Shown here piece after piece: positions 1,629 through 6,900 of a DNA stretch of 6,900 bases. Location of the stretch: NCBI GenBank assembly GCA_002693165.1, contig NZOP01000038.1, positions 5,728 to 12,627 of the forward strand, given 5' to 3'. The DNA is from Nitrososphaerota archaeon. Its GTDB lineage: Archaea; Thermoproteota; Nitrososphaeria; Nitrososphaerales; UBA57. Each line of letters opens with the position of its first letter. Position 1 is the first letter of the stretch. The notes below the pieces were generated by a model that saw only the letters and a program-made list of their open reading frames with translations, was not told the origin of the DNA and ran no database searches. A program made the translations under genes and the position numbers.

Positions 1629-2090
1629 GTGGCTTTAAACACATCTATTAAATTTTTTCATCACAAATTTCACGATCTTTCTCTGGATGATTTATATTAT
1701 ATATTAAGATTACGAAGCCTTGTTTTTAATCATCAACAACGATTAGTTGATGTTTCTGATGGAGAATGTATTGAAATTGATGGCAGAGATGTATCTTGTA
1801 CACATATAATTGGCAAGCTTCCAAATAATAAAATTGTTACTACTGCAAGATTATTTGATAACCACTCTCCATTGAGATTAGGACGATTTGCAGTTGACCC
1901 TGATTTTCAAAAACATGGTATTGGAACTAGTCTTCTTGATTATTTAGATTCAATTATTGACTCGAAACCAATAGAGATGAACGCACAATCTTATCTTGTT
2001 GATTGGTATTCGAAATTTGGTTGGTCTGTTTCTGGTTCTGAATTTATTGAATGTGGAATTAAACACGTGCGAATGATAAAAAATATATAA
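1629..2090 (+). CDS. GNAT-family N-acetyltransferase, ElaA-like
   Basis: This is a 153-residue acetyl-CoA-dependent acyltransferase of the GNAT fold, most like the ElaA subgroup. The N-terminal stretch LSLDDLYYILRLRSLVF (residues 18-33) matches the ElaA opening, in which a helix is followed by LRxxVF and an acidic segment. Motif A is at 82-103 (LRLGRFAVDPDF then QKHGIGTSLL), where Q-x-x-G-x-G binds the CoA pyrophosphate. The typical ElaA AQ...Y..FGW block is at 119-132, and GIKHVRM closes the domain near 143-149. Length matches the family at about 150. The start is GTG at 1629; no in-frame ATG or better start exists nearby, and no Shine-Dalgarno is seen, so the exact start is uncertain. The gene lies 23 bp after EF-2 and probably relies on read-through. 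The acceptor substrate is unknown: I infer a small molecule or protein amine, but nothing in the sequence decides it. Confidence 0.85.
   Translation: MALNTSIKFFHHKFHDLSLDDLYYILRLRSLVFNHQQRLVDVSDGECIEIDGRDVSCTHIIGKLPNNKIVTTARLFDNHSPLRLGRFAVDPDFQKHGIGTSLLDYLDSIIDSKPIEMNAQSYLVDWYSKFGWSVSGSEFIECGIKHVRMIKNI
2074..2090 (-). terminator. Candidate U-tract terminator of the E1 (ThiF/MoeB-like) gene
   Basis: Read on the minus strand, the bases right after the E1 stop codon are TTATATATTTTTTATC, a U-rich tract with six consecutive U. This is a plausible archaeal terminator for the minus-strand unit. It lies inside the 3' end of the acetyltransferase gene on the other strand. No hairpin is evident. Confidence 0.4.
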
Positions 2091-3194
2091 TTAGTTGAAT
2101 TGCACTAACTTTTCAAATTCACTATCAATTTTTTCGGGGTTAATGTTTAATTCATTAATTATTATTTCATTAAATACTTCTAATGCTCGTTTCTCTTCTA
2201 ATGCACCAACTATTATTGATACCCCGCTAGACACAATACTGATTGTTATCTGTTCATTGTATTGTATGGTTGTACCTAATTCCCCTTCCCGAATTATTCT
2301 TAATTCTTTTTCCTCGATGATTTCATTTAAACGCTTCAAGTCGATATTGAGATTCTCTTTTGGACTAATAATATGAACTGATTTTCCTTCTCTTCCACAT
2401 ATGTCTTCTATTAATTTTCTCTTTGATTTTTTTGCTGTCAAATTTGCGTTAATTCCACATACATTACATTTGGGCTGTTTGATTATTTTGACTTTATCAT
2501 AATTGAGATCACTAATATCGGCTAAGAATAGTTTATTTGCTAAATTTGGTTCTTTTCCAATTATTATCCTTACAGCCTCAGAAACCTGAACACTTGATAT
2601 TGTGGTTAATATTGATGGATGGACTCCTTCTGTTCCGCATTTTGGCATTTCTTCGTCTTTTAATGATGGTTGAAAACACTCCAAACAAGGTGTTTTACCA
2701 GGAATTATTGAAGTAGATGAACCTGTCGTTACTATTGCAGATCCAAAGACATATGGTATGTTTAATCTTACACATGCTCTATTGATAGAATATCTTGCAG
2801 ATACTGAATCTAATCCATCTATAACTACGTCTGAATCACTGATTACTTCGTCCACTGTATCATCATTAATTGATAGTGTTAAAGGCTCGACCTTCACTTG
2901 AGGATTTATTATTTTTAATCTATCGTGTGCTGCTTCAGCTTTTGATAATCCTACATCTTTATCTCCATATAAAACTTGTCTATGTAAATTCGACACTTCT
3001 ACTACATCTCTGTCCACGATTCTTATTGTTCCAATTCCCATAGCTACTAGTTGTTGAGTTATCGGAGATCCTAAACCTCCTATTCCTATTACAGTTATTC
3101 TTGCATTCTTTAATTTTTGTTGTCCTTCAAAACCAATTTCGTCCATGACAATTTGTCTTGAATATCTCTCAATTTCTGTATCTGATAATTCCAT
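2091..3194 (-). CDS. E1-like sulfur-carrier adenylyltransferase (HesA/MoeB/ThiF family) with C-terminal extension
   Basis: This cytosolic enzyme would use ATP to adenylate the C-terminal glycine of a ubiquitin-like sulfur carrier, here presumably the neighbour at 3199-3480. From the ATG at 3194 it is 367 residues. The E1 opening ELSDTEIERYSRQIVM is at 2-17. The Rossmann loop GIGGLG is at 37-42, and D61, the NLHRQ arginine R72, K85 and D129 are the expected ATP/Mg residues. Zinc ligands are Cys170/Cys173 and Cys243/Cys246. Cys186 in KCGTEGVHPSI sits where MOCS3/Uba4/ThiF enzymes have the catalytic cysteine. Residues about 250-367 form an extra domain that opens with CGREGK. It resembles the non-rhodanese tail of some bacterial ThiF/MoeB proteins; no rhodanese domain is present. 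The ATG at 3194 is preferred over GTG at 3209 because GGTGG lies 8 bases upstream and the E1 motif starts directly. It lies 4 bp after the carrier gene. Confidence 0.93.
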   Translation of the reverse strand: MELSDTEIERYSRQIVMDEIGFEGQQKLKNARITVIGIGGLGSPITQQLVAMGIGTIRIVDRDVVEVSNLHRQVLYGDKDVGLSKAEAAHDRLKIINPQVKVEPLTLSINDDTVDEVISDSDVVIDGLDSVSARYSINRACVRLNIPYVFGSAIVTTGSSTSIIPGKTPCLECFQPSLKDEEMPKCGTEGVHPSILTTISSVQVSEAVRIIIGKEPNLANKLFLADISDLNYDKVKIIKQPKCNVCGINANLTAKKSKRKLIEDICGREGKSVHIISPKENLNIDLKRLNEIIEEKELRIIREGELGTTIQYNEQITISIVSSGVSIIVGALEEKRALEVFNEIIINELNINPEKIDSEFEKLVQFN

Positions 3195-3198
3195 TAAT

Positions 3199-3480
3199 TT
3201 ATCCACCACTTACTGCTGGCAAAAATAAAATCTCATCTTTGTCTTTTAATATTGTTTGAAGATCCTCGAGGAATTTTATATTTTCGTCATTGACATAAAT
3301 ATTGATTATTGGTTTTAATTTTCCATTATTGTCTATTACTTTATTCTTGAATCCGTCCCCATATTTTTTTGCTAATTCATCAATCACTTCAATTACAGTA
3401 CTGCCTTCTATTTCCACTTCTCTTTCACCATTTGTAGAAGACGACATTACTGAAGGAATTAAGACTTTTACTTCTGTCAT
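3199..3480 (-). CDS. Ubiquitin-like sulfur carrier of the MoaD/ThiS family, CysO-like
   Basis: This 93-residue beta-grasp protein ends in AVSGG with Gly92-Gly93 as the last residues. That is the form that an E1 can adenylate and convert to a thiocarboxylate without proteolytic maturation. From memory of the M. tuberculosis sequence, it aligns along its length with CysO: a V-x-V-x-IPS start, an S/T-x-GxxxV strand, GKL followed by a near-identical NIYVNDEN(I) block around 59-68, and an LPAV(S/A)GG tail. MoaD of molybdopterin synthase and ThiS usually lack the long NIYVNDE strand pair in this form, so a role in amino-acid sulfuration is favoured over molybdenum cofactor or thiamine synthesis; this is inference. 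The gene starts 3 bp after the threonine synthase-like gene, which ends in tandem TAA stops, and a weak AGGT Shine-Dalgarno lies within that gene's end. The E1 gene follows 4 bp downstream. A tRNA-thiolation or protein-conjugation role remains possible. Confidence 0.9.
   Translation of the reverse strand: MTEVKVLIPSVMSSSTNGEREVEIEGSTVIEVIDELAKKYGDGFKNKVIDNNGKLKPIINIYVNDENIKFLEDLQTILKDKDEILFLPAVSGG
3203..3207 (-). promoter_or_regulatory. Shine-Dalgarno-like GGTGG for the E1 gene
   Basis: On the minus strand GGTGG(A) is followed by a short A/T spacer and ATG at 3194, a standard ribosome-binding spacing. The same bases encode the terminal Gly-Gly of the upstream carrier. This site favours the ATG at 3194 over the GTG codons at 3209 and 3206, which would overlap it. 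Confidence 0.5.
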
Positions 3481-3483
3481 TTA

Positions 3484-4704
3484 TTATCGACCTATTATGT
3501 TCAGTAATACTTCTCTCTTGGGTTCAACAATCTTTAATTCTGGTTGTTGAATAAATGGTGCATCTGGGGCTTTTAGACCATTTCCTGTTACATAGCATAC
3601 TATTTTCTCATCTGGATCTACTCTGTTCTGTTTTACCAATTTCTGTAATACTGCAATAGATACTGCTCCTCCTGGTTCCGCAAATATACCTTCAGTACTT
3701 GCTAAAAGCCTAATGGATTCTCTTATTTCTTCATCATTTGCCTTTTCTCCATATCCTCCAGAGTTTTTTACCGTTTCTATTGCAAATATCCCGTCTCCAG
3801 GTTCTCCTATTGCAAGACTCTTAGCTAGAGTGTTTGGTTTCTTCACAGGTTTTATTAAATTACTGTTATTTTTTATTGCATCTACTATGGGAGAACAACC
3901 ATCTGGTTGCGCGCTAGTGATCTTTGTTTTATTGTTTGATATTAAATCAACTTTATTAAATTCTTTTAATCCTCTGTCTATTGCACATAATAATGCACCA
4001 CTTCCTGTTGGAACTATTACATGATCTGGGGCTGACCATCCTAATTGTTCACATACTTCAAATGCAAGTGTCTTTGAACCTTCAACATAGTATGTTCTTA
4101 AATTTACATTTACTATTCCTATGTTGTATTGATCTCCTGCATATGATGCCAATCTATTTGCATCGTCATAAGTTCCATTTACTGGTATTATATTAGCTCC
4201 ATACGTCTGAATTTGAGATATTTTTGCTTTCTCAATGTTATGAGGAATAAAAATATAACATGGTATTCCTGCTCTTGCTGCGTGTGCTGCAGTAGCTGAC
4301 GCTAAATTTCCTGTAGAAGGAGCTCCTACTGCTTCTAGACCTATTTCTATTGCTTTAGATACTGCTACTCCTGCAGGTCTGTCCTTAAACGAAAATGACG
4401 GGTTGACTGTATCGTTTTTTATATACAGATTATTTAATCCTAATTTCTTTGCGAGTTTATCTGCTTTGTGTAATGGTGTATATCCTGCACCTATGTCTAT
4501 TATGTTGTTTTTGTTTCTTAATGGTAATAATTCAAAATATCTCCATAAACTTTTTTCTCTATTTTTAATTGTTTCTTTTGTTAGTTTGATTTTTTCAAAA
4601 TCATATATTACGTCTAATGGATTGAAACAATCATCACAAACATATTTTAAATCTACATCAAATTGTTTTGAACATTTCCGACATTTTAGATATTTGATCG
4701 TCAT
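3484..4704 (-). CDS. thrC: Threonine synthase-like PLP enzyme (fold type II) with N-terminal zinc ribbon
   Basis: By family this enzyme converts O-phosphohomoserine to threonine in the cytosol. It has 406 residues. An N-terminal zinc ribbon has Cys8/Cys11 and Cys23/Cys26, common in archaeal ThrC. The PLP-binding lysine is Lys107 in NPSFSFKDRPAG. STGNLASATAAHAARAG (130-146) binds substrate, and PTGSGAL (232-238) is the phosphate-cradle loop. AQPDGCSPIVDAI and LASTEGIFAEPGGAVSIAVL are typical of the ThrC branch. Length and motifs are complete. The gene is first in a tight unit with the CysO-like carrier (3-bp gap) and E1, which threonine synthesis itself would not need. The enzyme could therefore be a paralog that uses a carrier thiocarboxylate to make cysteine or homocysteine; cysteate synthase of methanogens is a known ThrC relative with another nucleophile. 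The ThrC-family call is strong, the exact reaction uncertain. A TATA-like element 22-34 nt upstream fits leaderless transcription. Confidence 0.9.
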   Translation of the reverse strand: MTIKYLKCRKCSKQFDVDLKYVCDDCFNPLDVIYDFEKIKLTKETIKNREKSLWRYFELLPLRNKNNIIDIGAGYTPLHKADKLAKKLGLNNLYIKNDTVNPSFSFKDRPAGVAVSKAIEIGLEAVGAPSTGNLASATAAHAARAGIPCYIFIPHNIEKAKISQIQTYGANIIPVNGTYDDANRLASYAGDQYNIGIVNVNLRTYYVEGSKTLAFEVCEQLGWSAPDHVIVPTGSGALLCAIDRGLKEFNKVDLISNNKTKITSAQPDGCSPIVDAIKNNSNLIKPVKKPNTLAKSLAIGEPGDGIFAIETVKNSGGYGEKANDEEIRESIRLLASTEGIFAEPGGAVSIAVLQKLVKQNRVDPDEKIVCYVTGNGLKAPDAPFIQQPELKIVEPKREVLLNIIGR

Positions 4705-4725: not shown

Positions 4726-4738
4726 CATAAATAAATAT
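4726..4738 (-). promoter_or_regulatory. TATA-like promoter element of the thrC-like unit
   Basis: On the minus strand ATATTTATTTATG lies 22 to 34 nt upstream of the thrC-like ATG. TATA-dependent initiation about 25 nt downstream would put the transcript 5' end at or very near the start codon, that is a leaderless mRNA. No Shine-Dalgarno precedes the ATG (bases before it read TTTTTAGACTTGT), which agrees. The region is so AT-rich that chance matches are common. Confidence 0.45.
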
Positions 4739-4750
4739 TTTTTTGATAAT

Positions 4751-4770
4751 ATTATTCTTATATGAATAAT
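4751..4770. repeat. 20-bp imperfect palindrome upstream of the thrC-like promoter
   Basis: ATTATTC at 4751-4757 is perfectly inverted at 4764-4770 as GAATAAT, with a 6-base centre TTATAT that is itself almost symmetric. It sits between the HD hydrolase stop codon, which it touches, and the thrC-like TATA element. It could bind a dimeric regulator upstream of that promoter, or form a weak AT hairpin at the end of the HD transcript; no U-run follows it on the minus strand. Function is not shown by the sequence. Confidence 0.4.
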
Positions 4771-5309
4771 TACTCTAGTTCATAAACAATATTGTCAAAT
4801 ATGTCTCTAGTTAGTTTGGAGTTTATCTTTGACTCTGAAGAACGTAGAAATTCTTTAATTGATTTTTTTGATAAATGTTCTTTGTATGCCAATAATTGCA
4901 TCATTAATTCTAATTTATCTATTTCATGTACTAAAATAGCTTCTTTTGACTCTGATTTTTTTAATTCTTTCCAAATTTCTATATAATCATCTTGAATTTC
5001 TTTAGGCAAATTATTTATAATTTTGATCATTGCATCATTTTCTTCGCGAGATTTATTTGGATTTTCTCCAGGGAGCAAATCTCCAATAATCGATTCTGGT
5101 AAATCGTGTATTAACATCATTTTCATGACTTTTTCTGTATCCAATTTTAATATATCTGAACAAACCATTGCCATAGTTGTTGCAGAATAACTATGATCTG
5201 CAACAGATTCAACTTTTTTTATATCAGTTTTTATTAACCATCCTTTTCTATTAATTATTTTTAATTTCTGAACAAACATAAAGAAATTTTTTAATTTTTG
5301 ATTGTTCAT
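4770..5309 (-). CDS. HD-domain hydrolase, YfbR/HDDC2-type 5'-deoxynucleotidase-like
   Basis: This is a 179-residue metal-dependent phosphohydrolase of the HD superfamily. The metal site is complete: His39 in VADHSY, His68-Asp69 in LIHDLPES, and Asp131 in VHEIDKLELM. Glu72 and Asp77 (HDLPESIIGDL) match the catalytic pattern HDxxE...GD of YfbR and human HDDC2, as do the W24 segment before the first His and the ESVADHSY block. Characterised relatives remove the 5' phosphate from deoxynucleoside monophosphates, so a role in dNTP pool control or salvage is inferred; the substrate here is unproven. The ATG overlaps the FEN-1 stop as ATGA, which indicates co-transcription and translational coupling. 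The gene ends 65 bp before the thrC-like start. Length is close to the usual 190-200 residues, and nothing is missing. Confidence 0.9.
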   Translation of the reverse strand: MNNQKLKNFFMFVQKLKIINRKGWLIKTDIKKVESVADHSYSATTMAMVCSDILKLDTEKVMKMMLIHDLPESIIGDLLPGENPNKSREENDAMIKIINNLPKEIQDDYIEIWKELKKSESKEAILVHEIDKLELMMQLLAYKEHLSKKSIKEFLRSSESKINSKLTRDIFDNIVYELE

Positions 5310-6331
5310 TTAAACCACTTATCTAAACTCTCTGATCTTTCTTCTTGTGTTTTTTCTAATTTATTTATCATATTTGATATTCTTTCTTCTGAAAAATTAT
5401 TTTGATCACACAGAAATGAAATTAATTTATTTTTATTTATTTCATTATGAGATACTGTGTCAGGTTTTATTACATTTGGACTAAGAAACATTTTTCTCAC
5501 TTCATCAATATTAATTAATTCTAATTCTTTTTGAATTGCAGGTATTTCTTCGATTTTTTTAAATTTTTTGATATATTTCATAGCTGTTTTTGGTCCTATT
5601 CTAGTAAATCCATTGGGATTGTAATCCGTTCCTATTAATATGGATATGTCAATTAATTGTTCTCTGTTTATGTCATTTAATCTTAAAAATTCTTTTAATT
5701 CAATCATTTCTGGTTCTACGTTGACGTATCTATTTGTTCTTGGAATTCTTCTTTTTCCTGATACTGTCAGATTTCTACACAGTTTTTTTGCCCCAAATAA
5801 TAAAGAATCATAATCTTGACTAACTGAGTATTCTGCAATTCCTGTTTCTGTTAAATATGCTGCGGTTGCTTCTCCTTCTGAAGGAGCTTGCACATATGGT
5901 ATTCCTAATAATTCCAAGATTTTCTTAGTATCGCTAATTATTTCATCATTAATTCTTATCATTGAATGTGAATATTTTTTTGCGAGTTCCTGATTGTCTT
6001 CTTCTATAGCTTTTAAATATTTTTCTTGATTTTTTTCTCTAATTTCTCTTCGTTTTTGAATTAATATTGATTTTAATTCTGGAGGTTTACCATCAAGTAC
6101 GTATATTGGTTTTATTTTATTATTTAGTAAATTAATATTACGGTAAAATAATCCGGTTAAATGACTTGTTACTCTTCCTTTATTATTTCTTAATGGCTCA
6201 CCTGTGGGACCTCTAATTGTTGTTAAAAATTGATAAATGATATTATATCCGTCTATTGCTATTGTATTTCCTGATAAATTCTCTATTTTTATTTTCTTTG
6301 GATCTGTAAAGTCTTTTAATTTTACTCCCAT
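5306..6331 (-). CDS. fen: Flap endonuclease 1 (FEN-1)
   Basis: This structure-specific nuclease removes 5' flaps during Okazaki-fragment maturation and base excision repair, working with PCNA. It has 341 residues, a normal archaeal length. The N-terminal XPG domain starts MGVKLKDF. The XPG-I domain contains SEGEATAAYL and SQDYDSLLFGA. All expected acidic metal ligands are present at canonical numbers: Asp27, Asp80, Glu152, Glu154, Asp173, Asp175 and Asp236. A helix-hairpin-helix for duplex binding follows at about 237-257 (GFTRIGPKTAMKYIKKF). The region 85-130, rich in Lys, Arg and Glu, is the helical arch and cap. The C-terminus SESLDKWFK is a PCNA-interacting (PIP) motif in which the first position, usually Gln, is Ser. 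The start is the conserved MGV; Gly2 should be the mature N-terminus. It heads a two-gene unit with the HD hydrolase (4-bp overlap) and is divergent from the ferredoxin gene. Confidence 0.97.
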   Translation of the reverse strand: MGVKLKDFTDPKKIKIENLSGNTIAIDGYNIIYQFLTTIRGPTGEPLRNNKGRVTSHLTGLFYRNINLLNNKIKPIYVLDGKPPELKSILIQKRREIREKNQEKYLKAIEEDNQELAKKYSHSMIRINDEIISDTKKILELLGIPYVQAPSEGEATAAYLTETGIAEYSVSQDYDSLLFGAKKLCRNLTVSGKRRIPRTNRYVNVEPEMIELKEFLRLNDINREQLIDISILIGTDYNPNGFTRIGPKTAMKYIKKFKKIEEIPAIQKELELINIDEVRKMFLSPNVIKPDTVSHNEINKNKLISFLCDQNNFSEERISNMINKLEKTQEERSESLDKWFK

Positions 6332-6783: not shown

Positions 6784-6900
6784 ATGTTAGACGATTCTAT
6801 AGATCTAGAAAGTGAAGTTACAGAACCTGAAGAAGTTACAGAACCTGAAGAAGTTACAGAACCTGAAGAAGTTACAGAACCTGAAGAAGTTACAGAACCT
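6784..6900 (+). CDS. Unrecognised protein with acidic EVTEPE-repeat N-terminus, 3' end outside window
   Basis: Only the first 39 codons are visible. After MLDDSIDLES the frame is a tandem repeat of Glu-Val-Thr-Glu-Pro-Glu that reaches the window edge. The visible part is strongly acidic, contains no hydrophobic signal peptide or membrane segment, and is expected to be disordered. Pro-Glu-Thr-rich repeats like this often act as extended spacers before a folded domain, but which domain follows cannot be seen. The gene lies 93 bp after the ferredoxin stop on the same strand with its own TATA-like element, so it is probably transcribed separately. I do not recognise it. ATG at 6784 is the first in-frame start and is followed directly by the open frame. 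The call that it is coding rests on the 18-bp repeat keeping frame and on the promoter-like context. Confidence 0.6.
   Translation, partial: MLDDSIDLESEVTEPEEVTEPEEVTEPEEVTEPEEVTEP
6814..6900 (+). repeat. Perfect 18-bp tandem repeat (EVTEPE), continuing past the window
   Basis: The unit GAAGTTACAGAACCTGAA occurs 4.8 times in succession with no base change, to the last base of the window. The period is a multiple of three, so the frame is kept. Identity at synonymous positions (always GTT, ACA, CCT and GAA) points to recent expansion by slippage or recombination rather than selection on the protein alone. There are no spacers, so it is not a CRISPR array. Confidence 0.97.

Follow-up and report, generated by a model that had tools for sequence, protein, structure and literature searches.

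A three-gene archaeal operon that very likely encodes a carrier-thiocarboxylate homocysteine synthase of the MetM/MetO type with its own E1

The CysO/CysM/MoeZ/Mec+ pathway of Mycobacterium tuberculosis and the MetM/MetO system of Streptomyces are the described systems with which the locus studied here is best compared. MetO is a thiocarboxylated carrier that is charged by MoeZ, which is encoded elsewhere. Synthesis from a carrier thiocarboxylate is described as established for cysteine in M. tuberculosis and for methionine in Wolinella (PMC6225789). In Streptomyces albulus, MetM is a homocysteine synthase that converts O-phosphohomoserine, and an S-adenosylmethionine (SAM) riboswitch lies upstream of its gene (Hasebe et al., 2024, as cited in PMC12172450); the citing paper likens a carrier-family gene beside a Microcystis MetM homologue to metO. 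Here, we analyse a 6900-nucleotide stretch of DNA from a Nitrososphaerota archaeon (the window; assembly GCA_002693165.1, contig NZOP01000038.1, positions 5728–12 627), in which three minus-strand genes encode a pyridoxal 5′-phosphate (PLP) enzyme of the threonine synthase (ThrC) branch, a sulfur carrier and an E1-like adenylyltransferase. Judging from sequence, we consider it very likely that this operon is an archaeal carrier-thiocarboxylate homocysteine synthase of the MetM/MetO type with its own E1. This reading draws on the genes, their fold families and order, the clade and residues of the PLP enzyme, a riboswitch in the actinobacterium Nonomuraea and pathway gaps in relatives; the chemistry of each step, like the choice of substrate and product, is taken from knowledge of the families. 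The original prediction, made from the window alone, had proposed a carrier-dependent route to cysteine or homocysteine and had called it a distinct variant. The homocysteine branch of that proposal is strongly supported at the sequence level by the gene order, the clade, the Nonomuraea riboswitch, homoserine dehydrogenase in related clusters and the absence of a full-length PF01053 match from all 20 genomes surveyed and of HcyBio from 17 of them, while cysteine is unlikely. The claim of distinctness gives way, because a ThrC-like homocysteine synthase with a carrier neighbour has been known since 2024, according to PMC12172450; the archaeal operon is a variant of this recently described kind. 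Since carrier-thiocarboxylate routes to both cysteine and methionine are established, it would work as MetM/MetO does, with variant features: an E1 of its own, fusion of that E1 to the carrier in relatives and, in the closest of these, the absence of any JAMM match. Among the papers listed by searches of the openly licensed literature for a ThrC/carrier pair or for the methionine route of ammonia oxidizers, there was no archaeal case; Hasebe et al. (2024) may mention archaea.

There are distinguishable likenesses and differences between the operon and each of these systems. With the M. tuberculosis pathway it shares a CysO-like Gly-Gly carrier and E1-type activation. However, the PLP partner here belongs to the ThrC branch, with no enzyme of the CysM/CysK type in the operon, the E1 lacks a rhodanese match, and no Prok-JAB match was found in the four closest genomes (G001–G004 of the 20 operon-bearing genomes, G001–G020, that were surveyed for pathway genes). 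The HcyS system of Wolinella uses the same carrier-thiocarboxylate sulfur donor for homocysteine and has a sulfite reductase in its cluster, as do two of our loci (L074 and L052); its enzyme is a MetY of fold type I acting on acetylhomoserine, whereas the enzyme here is of the PALP family and fold type II, and its JAMM-type HcyD was not seen here. The S. albulus system likewise pairs a PLP enzyme homologous to `threonine synthase' with a carrier-family neighbour, metO, and is described as having an upstream SAM riboswitch (PMC12172450); in our set this riboswitch stands on the Nonomuraea gene and is absent from the window. The window system differs further in being archaeal, in having an E1 within the operon, in the carrier–E1 fusion of 50 of 80 related loci and in that its four closest relatives gave no match to JAMM.

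The genes for the PLP enzyme (3484–4704; 406 residues, with zinc-ribbon-like cysteines at the N-terminus), the CysO/MetO-like carrier (3199–3480; 93 residues) and the E1 (2091–3194; 367 residues from an ATG) follow one another on the minus strand with intergenic gaps of 3 bp (TAA) and 4 bp (ATTA). A GTG at 3209, upstream of the ATG, is an alternative start for the E1 and would overlap the carrier. The carrier matches Pfam ThiS with 52 bits and ends in ...LPAVSGG, with a free C-terminal Gly-Gly (codons at 3202–3207, minus strand). Among solved structures, it is best matched by 4n6e (66 bits) and 3dwg (57 bits), which we take to be CysO from Amycolatopsis and from M. tuberculosis, respectively. 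The E1, of the ThiF/MoeB superfamily (Pfam ThiF, 246 bits), consists of a ThiF domain and a C-terminal domain of about 110 residues. It has the nucleotide-binding GxGGLG motif, two cysteine pairs (C170/C173 and C243/C246) that are zinc ligands by alignment to MoeB, and C186 (2637–2639, minus strand) at the position of Escherichia coli ThiF Cys184, which we take to be the catalytic position; these cysteines do not vary across the 27 sequences aligned, of which the window protein is one. C266 (2397–2399, minus strand) belongs to a C-x-R-x-GK motif with which the C-terminal domain begins; it is also invariant (27/27) and is a candidate sulfur-handling residue. A structure model of the E1 (predicted local distance difference test score, pLDDT, of 88) can be aligned with ThiF and MoeB over about 245 columns; its C-terminal domain received no identification among the 50 PDB matches listed, and Pfam gave no rhodanese match in the protein. 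In PMC2948915, the C-terminal domain of most archaeal E1s is called TBP-like. No JAMM protease was found by Pfam among the eight window proteins scanned. Thus, the initial description of three tightly packed genes, a Gly-Gly carrier resembling M. tuberculosis CysO, a complete E1 with zinc ligands and a catalytic-position cysteine, and a window without a JAMM peptidase gene was sound.

The PLP enzyme, hereafter ThrC-A, matches Pfam PALP with 246 bits and exceeds the cut-offs of NF006050 and TIGR00260, the threonine synthase models of NCBIfam; together with its place in the tree, these matches uphold the first assignment of the enzyme to fold type II and the ThrC branch. Scores of this kind would also suit an ordinary threonine synthase that shares its operon by chance with an unrelated carrier/E1 pair, a reading that we regard as highly improbable. 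TIGR00260 is passed by ThrC types A, B and C alike and hence does not discriminate between them. In a tree of 45 sequences, including the solved threonine synthases of Bacillus subtilis, Thermus and Aquifex, ThrC-A and its actinobacterial member form one clade (99/97), while ThrC-B and ThrC-C group with the solved threonine synthases (99/99), separate from ThrC-A. The 110 A-type rows (some genomes being counted twice) are set apart from 12 canonical rows by 22 alignment columns, including one gap column. Compared with threonine synthase (solved as 2zsj, 6cgq and 1uim), ThrC-A shares the fold family, the PLP motif SFKDR, from which K107 is assigned as the PLP lysine, and probably the substrate; it differs at the 22 columns, R206Y and Q210S among them. 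The canonical motifs R-x-EGQK, SFKDRG and GNAGN each occur in all 12 canonical rows and in none of the 110 A-type rows: SFKDRG becomes SFKDRP or SFKDRV, EGQK becomes EGSK, the arginine before EGQK, which in canonical ThrC presumably binds the substrate phosphate, becomes tyrosine, and GNAGN is lost. In the window, the canonical S-x-N-P-x-R-x-E-G-Q-K is replaced by NLRTYYVEGSKT (residues 201–212; 4069–4104, minus strand), in which R is changed to Y206, Q to S210 and N to R203.

Paralogy argues in the same direction. A second ThrC is present in 11 of the 12 relatives whose PALP loci were read, of type B in seven and of type C in four; none was seen among the loci read in G005, a fragmented assembly. 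Type B retains the canonical threonine synthase residues and adjoins the homoserine kinase gene thrB in five of its seven genomes (G001–G004 and G006), the other two (G009 and G010) having no thrB match over the cut-off. A plain threonine synthase was accordingly rejected on paralogy, residues and gene context. On the homocysteine reading, the ThrC-A subfamily is mislabelled as `threonine synthase'; the separating columns allow the two to be told apart. The fold prediction for ThrC-A is moderate (pLDDT 73) and carries no weight here. Two further candidates were set aside. The first is cysteate synthase, as ThrC-A scores far under the TIGR03844 cut-off (70 versus 325 bits). The second is an Aliarcobacter `threonine synthase', considered as another bacterial case, which does not have the A-type residues and sits on a long branch beyond the ThrC-A clade. 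This divergent gene lies on the Aliarcobacter cibarius plasmid pACIB (L160; about 52–74 kb) in a sulfur cluster that also holds alkanesulfonate genes, a cysteine synthase, an M67 protease, a MoaD-like carrier, insertion sequence elements, an encapsulin with a cysteine desulfurase, cysE and cysK.

The actinobacterial member of the clade provides the link to methionine. ThrC-A of Nonomuraea gerenzanensis is 43% identical to the window enzyme and agrees with the A type at 19 of the 22 separating columns, and a CysO-like carrier, 36% identical to that of the window, is encoded 24 nt behind it. Only 13 nt separate the presumed start ATG of this ThrC-A gene from the end of a SAM riboswitch (RF00162; 68.7 bits, the Rfam threshold being 44.4). 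ThrC-A therefore stands in the clade of a SAM-riboswitch-controlled actinobacterial gene and not with canonical ThrC, although Nonomuraea is one long-branch row that the tree program flagged as unsurely placed. A second Nonomuraea carrier adjoins a CysK-like gene, and no SAM riboswitch was found in the 10 kb around it. This contrast bears on the proposal that ThrC-A is a cysteine synthase using O-phosphoserine (or O-acetylserine) and a carrier thiocarboxylate in the manner of CysM/CysO. The CysO-like character of the carrier would agree with such an enzyme; nevertheless, the riboswitch is found only at ThrC-A and not at the carrier beside the CysK-like gene, and we consider the proposal quite improbable.

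Gene order was followed in two samples. For the first, genomes were scanned with an alignment of 12 PLP enzyme rows, and the best 80 of 305 relatives were kept. A carrier gene lies behind ThrC-A on the same strand at all 80 loci, which excludes a chance association. The E1 follows on the same locus in 75 of them, about 1 kb behind the carrier in L028 and L074, and was not seen on L012, L015, L022, L062 and L070. The carrier is unfused at 28 loci, fused in frame to the E1 with an internal Gly-Gly at 50 (two of which run off the contig) and fused to another PLP enzyme at two (L020 and L022). The second sample consisted of 201 genomes from the class to which G011 belongs, taken as Bathyarchaeia because G011 is a Bathyarchaeum; it overlaps the first, the genomes of L015, L020, L021, L022 and L074, for example, recurring in it. 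The ThrC-A subfamily is present in 28 of these genomes (at least 511 bits, the next match having 414), with a carrier at 26 of the 28 loci; the other two are a contig end and a truncated hit. No carrier or E1 match was obtained at 15 control loci of other ThrC-like paralogues, two of which are only 4.2 kb long. Conservation of the order, which the original prediction had suggested checking, was thus found in both samples and in the Nonomuraea pair, and this recurrence of the carrier pairing in an actinobacterium and in archaea is a further point against a threonine synthase placed there by chance. A phage search returned 13 records, all below 60% identity.

The same loci bear on whether the carrier and E1 serve mainly tRNA 2-thiolation, molybdopterin synthesis or SAMP-like tagging, with ThrC-A merely co-transcribed. 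To this we assign hardly any probability, as carrier and ThrC-A stay together on loci that show no E1 (L012, L015, L062 and L070), where the E1 lies 1 kb away (L028) and across domains. Two of the four closest genomes (G003 and G004) show a single ThiS-family match; the carrier may therefore serve several clients. PMC2948915 connects the Ubl proteins of archaea with the modification of tRNA. For molybdopterin, the partner would be MoaE, a pairing that had been named at the outset as evidence against the carrier-fed route; MoaE is present in nine of the 20 genomes surveyed but was not found in the four closest, and a role of the carrier as MoaD was rejected on its absence from these four.

The pathway survey suggests why the operon might be needed. 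A full-length match to PF01053 (the family of MetY, MetB and the cystathionine enzymes) was found in none of the 20 genomes, which gave partial matches of at most 41.6 bits; PF01053 also matches a desulfurase-type protein at 32 bits, and most genuine members exceed 250 bits. HcyBio is present in three genomes (G008, G011 and G012). A known homocysteine synthase, as full-length PF01053 or HcyBio, was therefore not found in 17 of the 20, including all seven genomes of ammonia-oxidizer genera (G013, G014 and G016–G020). The neighbouring steps are better represented: thrB matches over the cut-off in 13 genomes and MetE-type methionine synthase in 12, the four closest being included in both counts, and the MetH type in five; neither methionine synthase gave a match in G010–G012. 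In G001 (C11), G003 (C22), G005 (C69) and G006 (C7), the MetE-type matches form two neighbouring stretches, which suggests a split or duplicated MetE. Marine heterotrophic Thaumarchaeota, among which ASW8 (the label of L002) is placed, are described as having genes for all amino acids and an acquired metE (PMC7300363). The window, which shares its gene neighbourhood with L002, most likely belongs to this group as well. A separate gene of the CysK/CysM type is present in 11 of the 12 genomes read and was not seen in G004; two such genes were compared with NCBIfam and both fell below the curated cut-off. Cysteine is therefore unlikely as the product of ThrC-A, and homocysteine is far likelier. 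The suggested check for separate synthases thus came out differently for the two amino acids: a cysteine synthase-like gene is there in 11 of 12 genomes, but 17 of 20 gave no sign of a separate enzyme for homocysteine.

Further context comes from the Bathyarchaeia. Homoserine dehydrogenase is encoded directly behind the carrier at six of the 28 loci (L172, L174, L177, L178, L181 and L189; found by tblastn with the L074 protein, whose own assignment Pfam and NCBIfam confirm, L177 being from the genome of L074), which points to the homoserine branch and away from a cysteine synthase. Several ThrC-B genes also have a homoserine dehydrogenase neighbour, as a threonine synthase would lead one to expect, and this enzyme alone would equally suit a threonine operon; in combination with a sulfur carrier and a sulfite reductase, homocysteine appears to fit better than threonine. 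In L074 and L052, a gene of the sulfite/nitrite reductase type lies behind the E1 and is followed by a TusA-like gene, confirmed by Pfam in L074 and recognized by reading of the sequence in L052.

In the mechanism that we propose for homocysteine synthesis, the E1 would first use ATP to adenylate the carrier at its C-terminal glycine. Sulfide or persulfide sulfur, passing by way of C186 and possibly C266, would then convert the acyl-adenylate to the carrier thiocarboxylate. ThrC-A would hold O-phosphohomoserine as the PLP aldimine and eliminate phosphate to give a vinylglycine intermediate, to which the thiocarboxylate would add at Cγ; this addition would take the place of the Cγ protonation and Cβ water addition of the threonine route. 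The resulting homocysteinyl-carrier thioester or amide would finally be hydrolysed, releasing homocysteine for methionine synthase. The thioester could be hydrolysed directly, with no need for a JAMM protease.

Carrier–E1 fusions of Thaumarchaeota have been noted before as Ubl-E1 and MoaD-MoeB proteins (PMC2948915, PMC11237513); a term search of the main texts of PMC2948915 and PMC1779556, excluding supplements, gave no mention of threonine synthase. The fusions may require maturation. All seven of the 20 genomes in which the carrier extends past Gly-Gly (six E1 fusions and one tail) have two JAB matches each, and six of the 13 with a terminal Gly-Gly have none (Fisher p = 0.05). The two JABs per extended-carrier genome fit JAMM cleavage of a fused carrier–E1 precursor, and work cited in PMC11237513 describes cleavage of a MoaD-MoaE fusion by JAMM proteases. 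The fusion is highlighted here because its maturation is open to test.

Several observations weigh against a carrier-fed homocysteine synthase. In L022, a carrier fused to CysK (4841–6055; above the curated cut-off) lies directly behind ThrC-A; in L020, a fusion behind ThrC-A (1991–3610) joins a carrier, a middle segment with a resemblance, by reading only, to ParB-like serine kinase and a CysM-like enzyme (below the cut-off), and is followed downstream by an E1, a class-V aminotransferase of the desulfurase type and a JAB gene. These two loci, with the desulfurase-type and JAB genes of L020, would favour a cysteine synthase. The riboswitch evidence comes from one bacterium, that of the unsurely placed row; in the window, Rfam found no SAM riboswitch, although such an element does not define the MetM type. 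The likeness to S. albulus MetM/MetO rests on their description, with the Nonomuraea gene standing in for their sequences. The Microcystis MetM homologue (51.6% identity, with an adjacent carrier gene), described as having no SAM riboswitch, acted in vitro as a threonine synthase and deaminase, in favour of the threonine reading, and did not raise cellular methionine (PMC12172450). No Prok-JAB match was found in the four closest genomes, and hence no JAMM protease for product release. The relatives are mostly metagenome-assembled genomes (MAGs) of untold completeness, and 17 of the 20 pass the low Pfam cut-off of PF01053 (27 bits) by partial matches. Seven genomes (G005, G007, G009–G012 and G015) have no thrB match over the cut-off, so that a supply of O-phosphohomoserine is not evident in all. 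In the Bathyarchaeia, HcyBio is present in 18 of the 28 genomes that have ThrC-A and in 88 of the 173 that lack it (p = 0.22), and both HcyBio and PF01053 are missing from nine of 28 and 54 of 173, respectively; these similar frequencies indicate no complementarity with HcyBio, and the expected inverse pattern was not borne out. In favour of the homocysteine reading, genuine PF01053 members (E up to 1e-30) are rarer in the Bathyarchaeia with ThrC-A (two of 28 versus 66 of 173; p = 0.0009, uncorrected for kinship). From these counts, the gap argument is good for the ammonia-oxidizer genera and the relatives of the window and weak for the Bathyarchaeia.

Ammonia-oxidizing archaea are among the most abundant cells of the ocean and soils, and the operon would supply their missing homocysteine step, extend carrier-thiocarboxylate amino-acid synthesis to archaea and make their methionine pathway directly testable. 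A bolder proposition, to which we give a little less than even credence, is that this pathway is the sole de novo source of homocysteine, and hence methionine, in ammonia-oxidizing archaea and their heterotrophic marine relatives, with a dedicated E1. The ammonia oxidizers would use a JAMM-cut carrier–E1 polyprotein and the small-genome relatives a free Gly-Gly carrier without JAMM, while in some Bathyarchaeia the carrier would also feed fused cysteine synthases as a common sulfur-assimilation hub. Organisms whose homocysteine route is listed as unknown include Acidimicrobium ferrooxidans (PMC5764234), and the ThrC-A subfamily is a candidate for such organisms.

The promoter-like element first noticed before the PLP gene is a TATA-like block, AAATATTTATTTATG (4726–4740, minus strand), which five relatives share with the window letter for letter. 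Upstream of it, a near-palindrome, ATTCATATAAGAAT (4754–4767, minus strand), is a possible operator site; for the form present in the window, 0.03 chance occurrences are expected, with a pattern picked after sight of the sequence. It reads ATTCATATATGAAT in L001–L003, with one change in L004 and more in L005. By Pfam and NCBIfam scans, an HD-domain gene and the gene of flap endonuclease FEN1 precede the operon on its own strand, and a GNAT gene and elongation factor 2 lie downstream on the opposite strand. This eight-gene neighbourhood is common to L001, L003, L004 and L005, which are marine Thaumarchaeota MAGs, and to L002 as far as its contig end.

Two minor observations concern other proteins. 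Ammonia-oxidizer genera have a divergent PALP protein of 520–530 residues (L102 in G013 and, by length, also G014 and G016), which is weakly like cysteine synthases and scores 92.6 bits to PF00291. At the end of the window, a perfect 18 bp tandem repeat of 4.8 copies (6814–6900) encodes, by reading, VTEPEE-type repeats that form an acidic extension. The protein concerned, in which the repeats lie close to the N-terminus, corresponds in position and start to a Rad51/RadA-family protein of L003.

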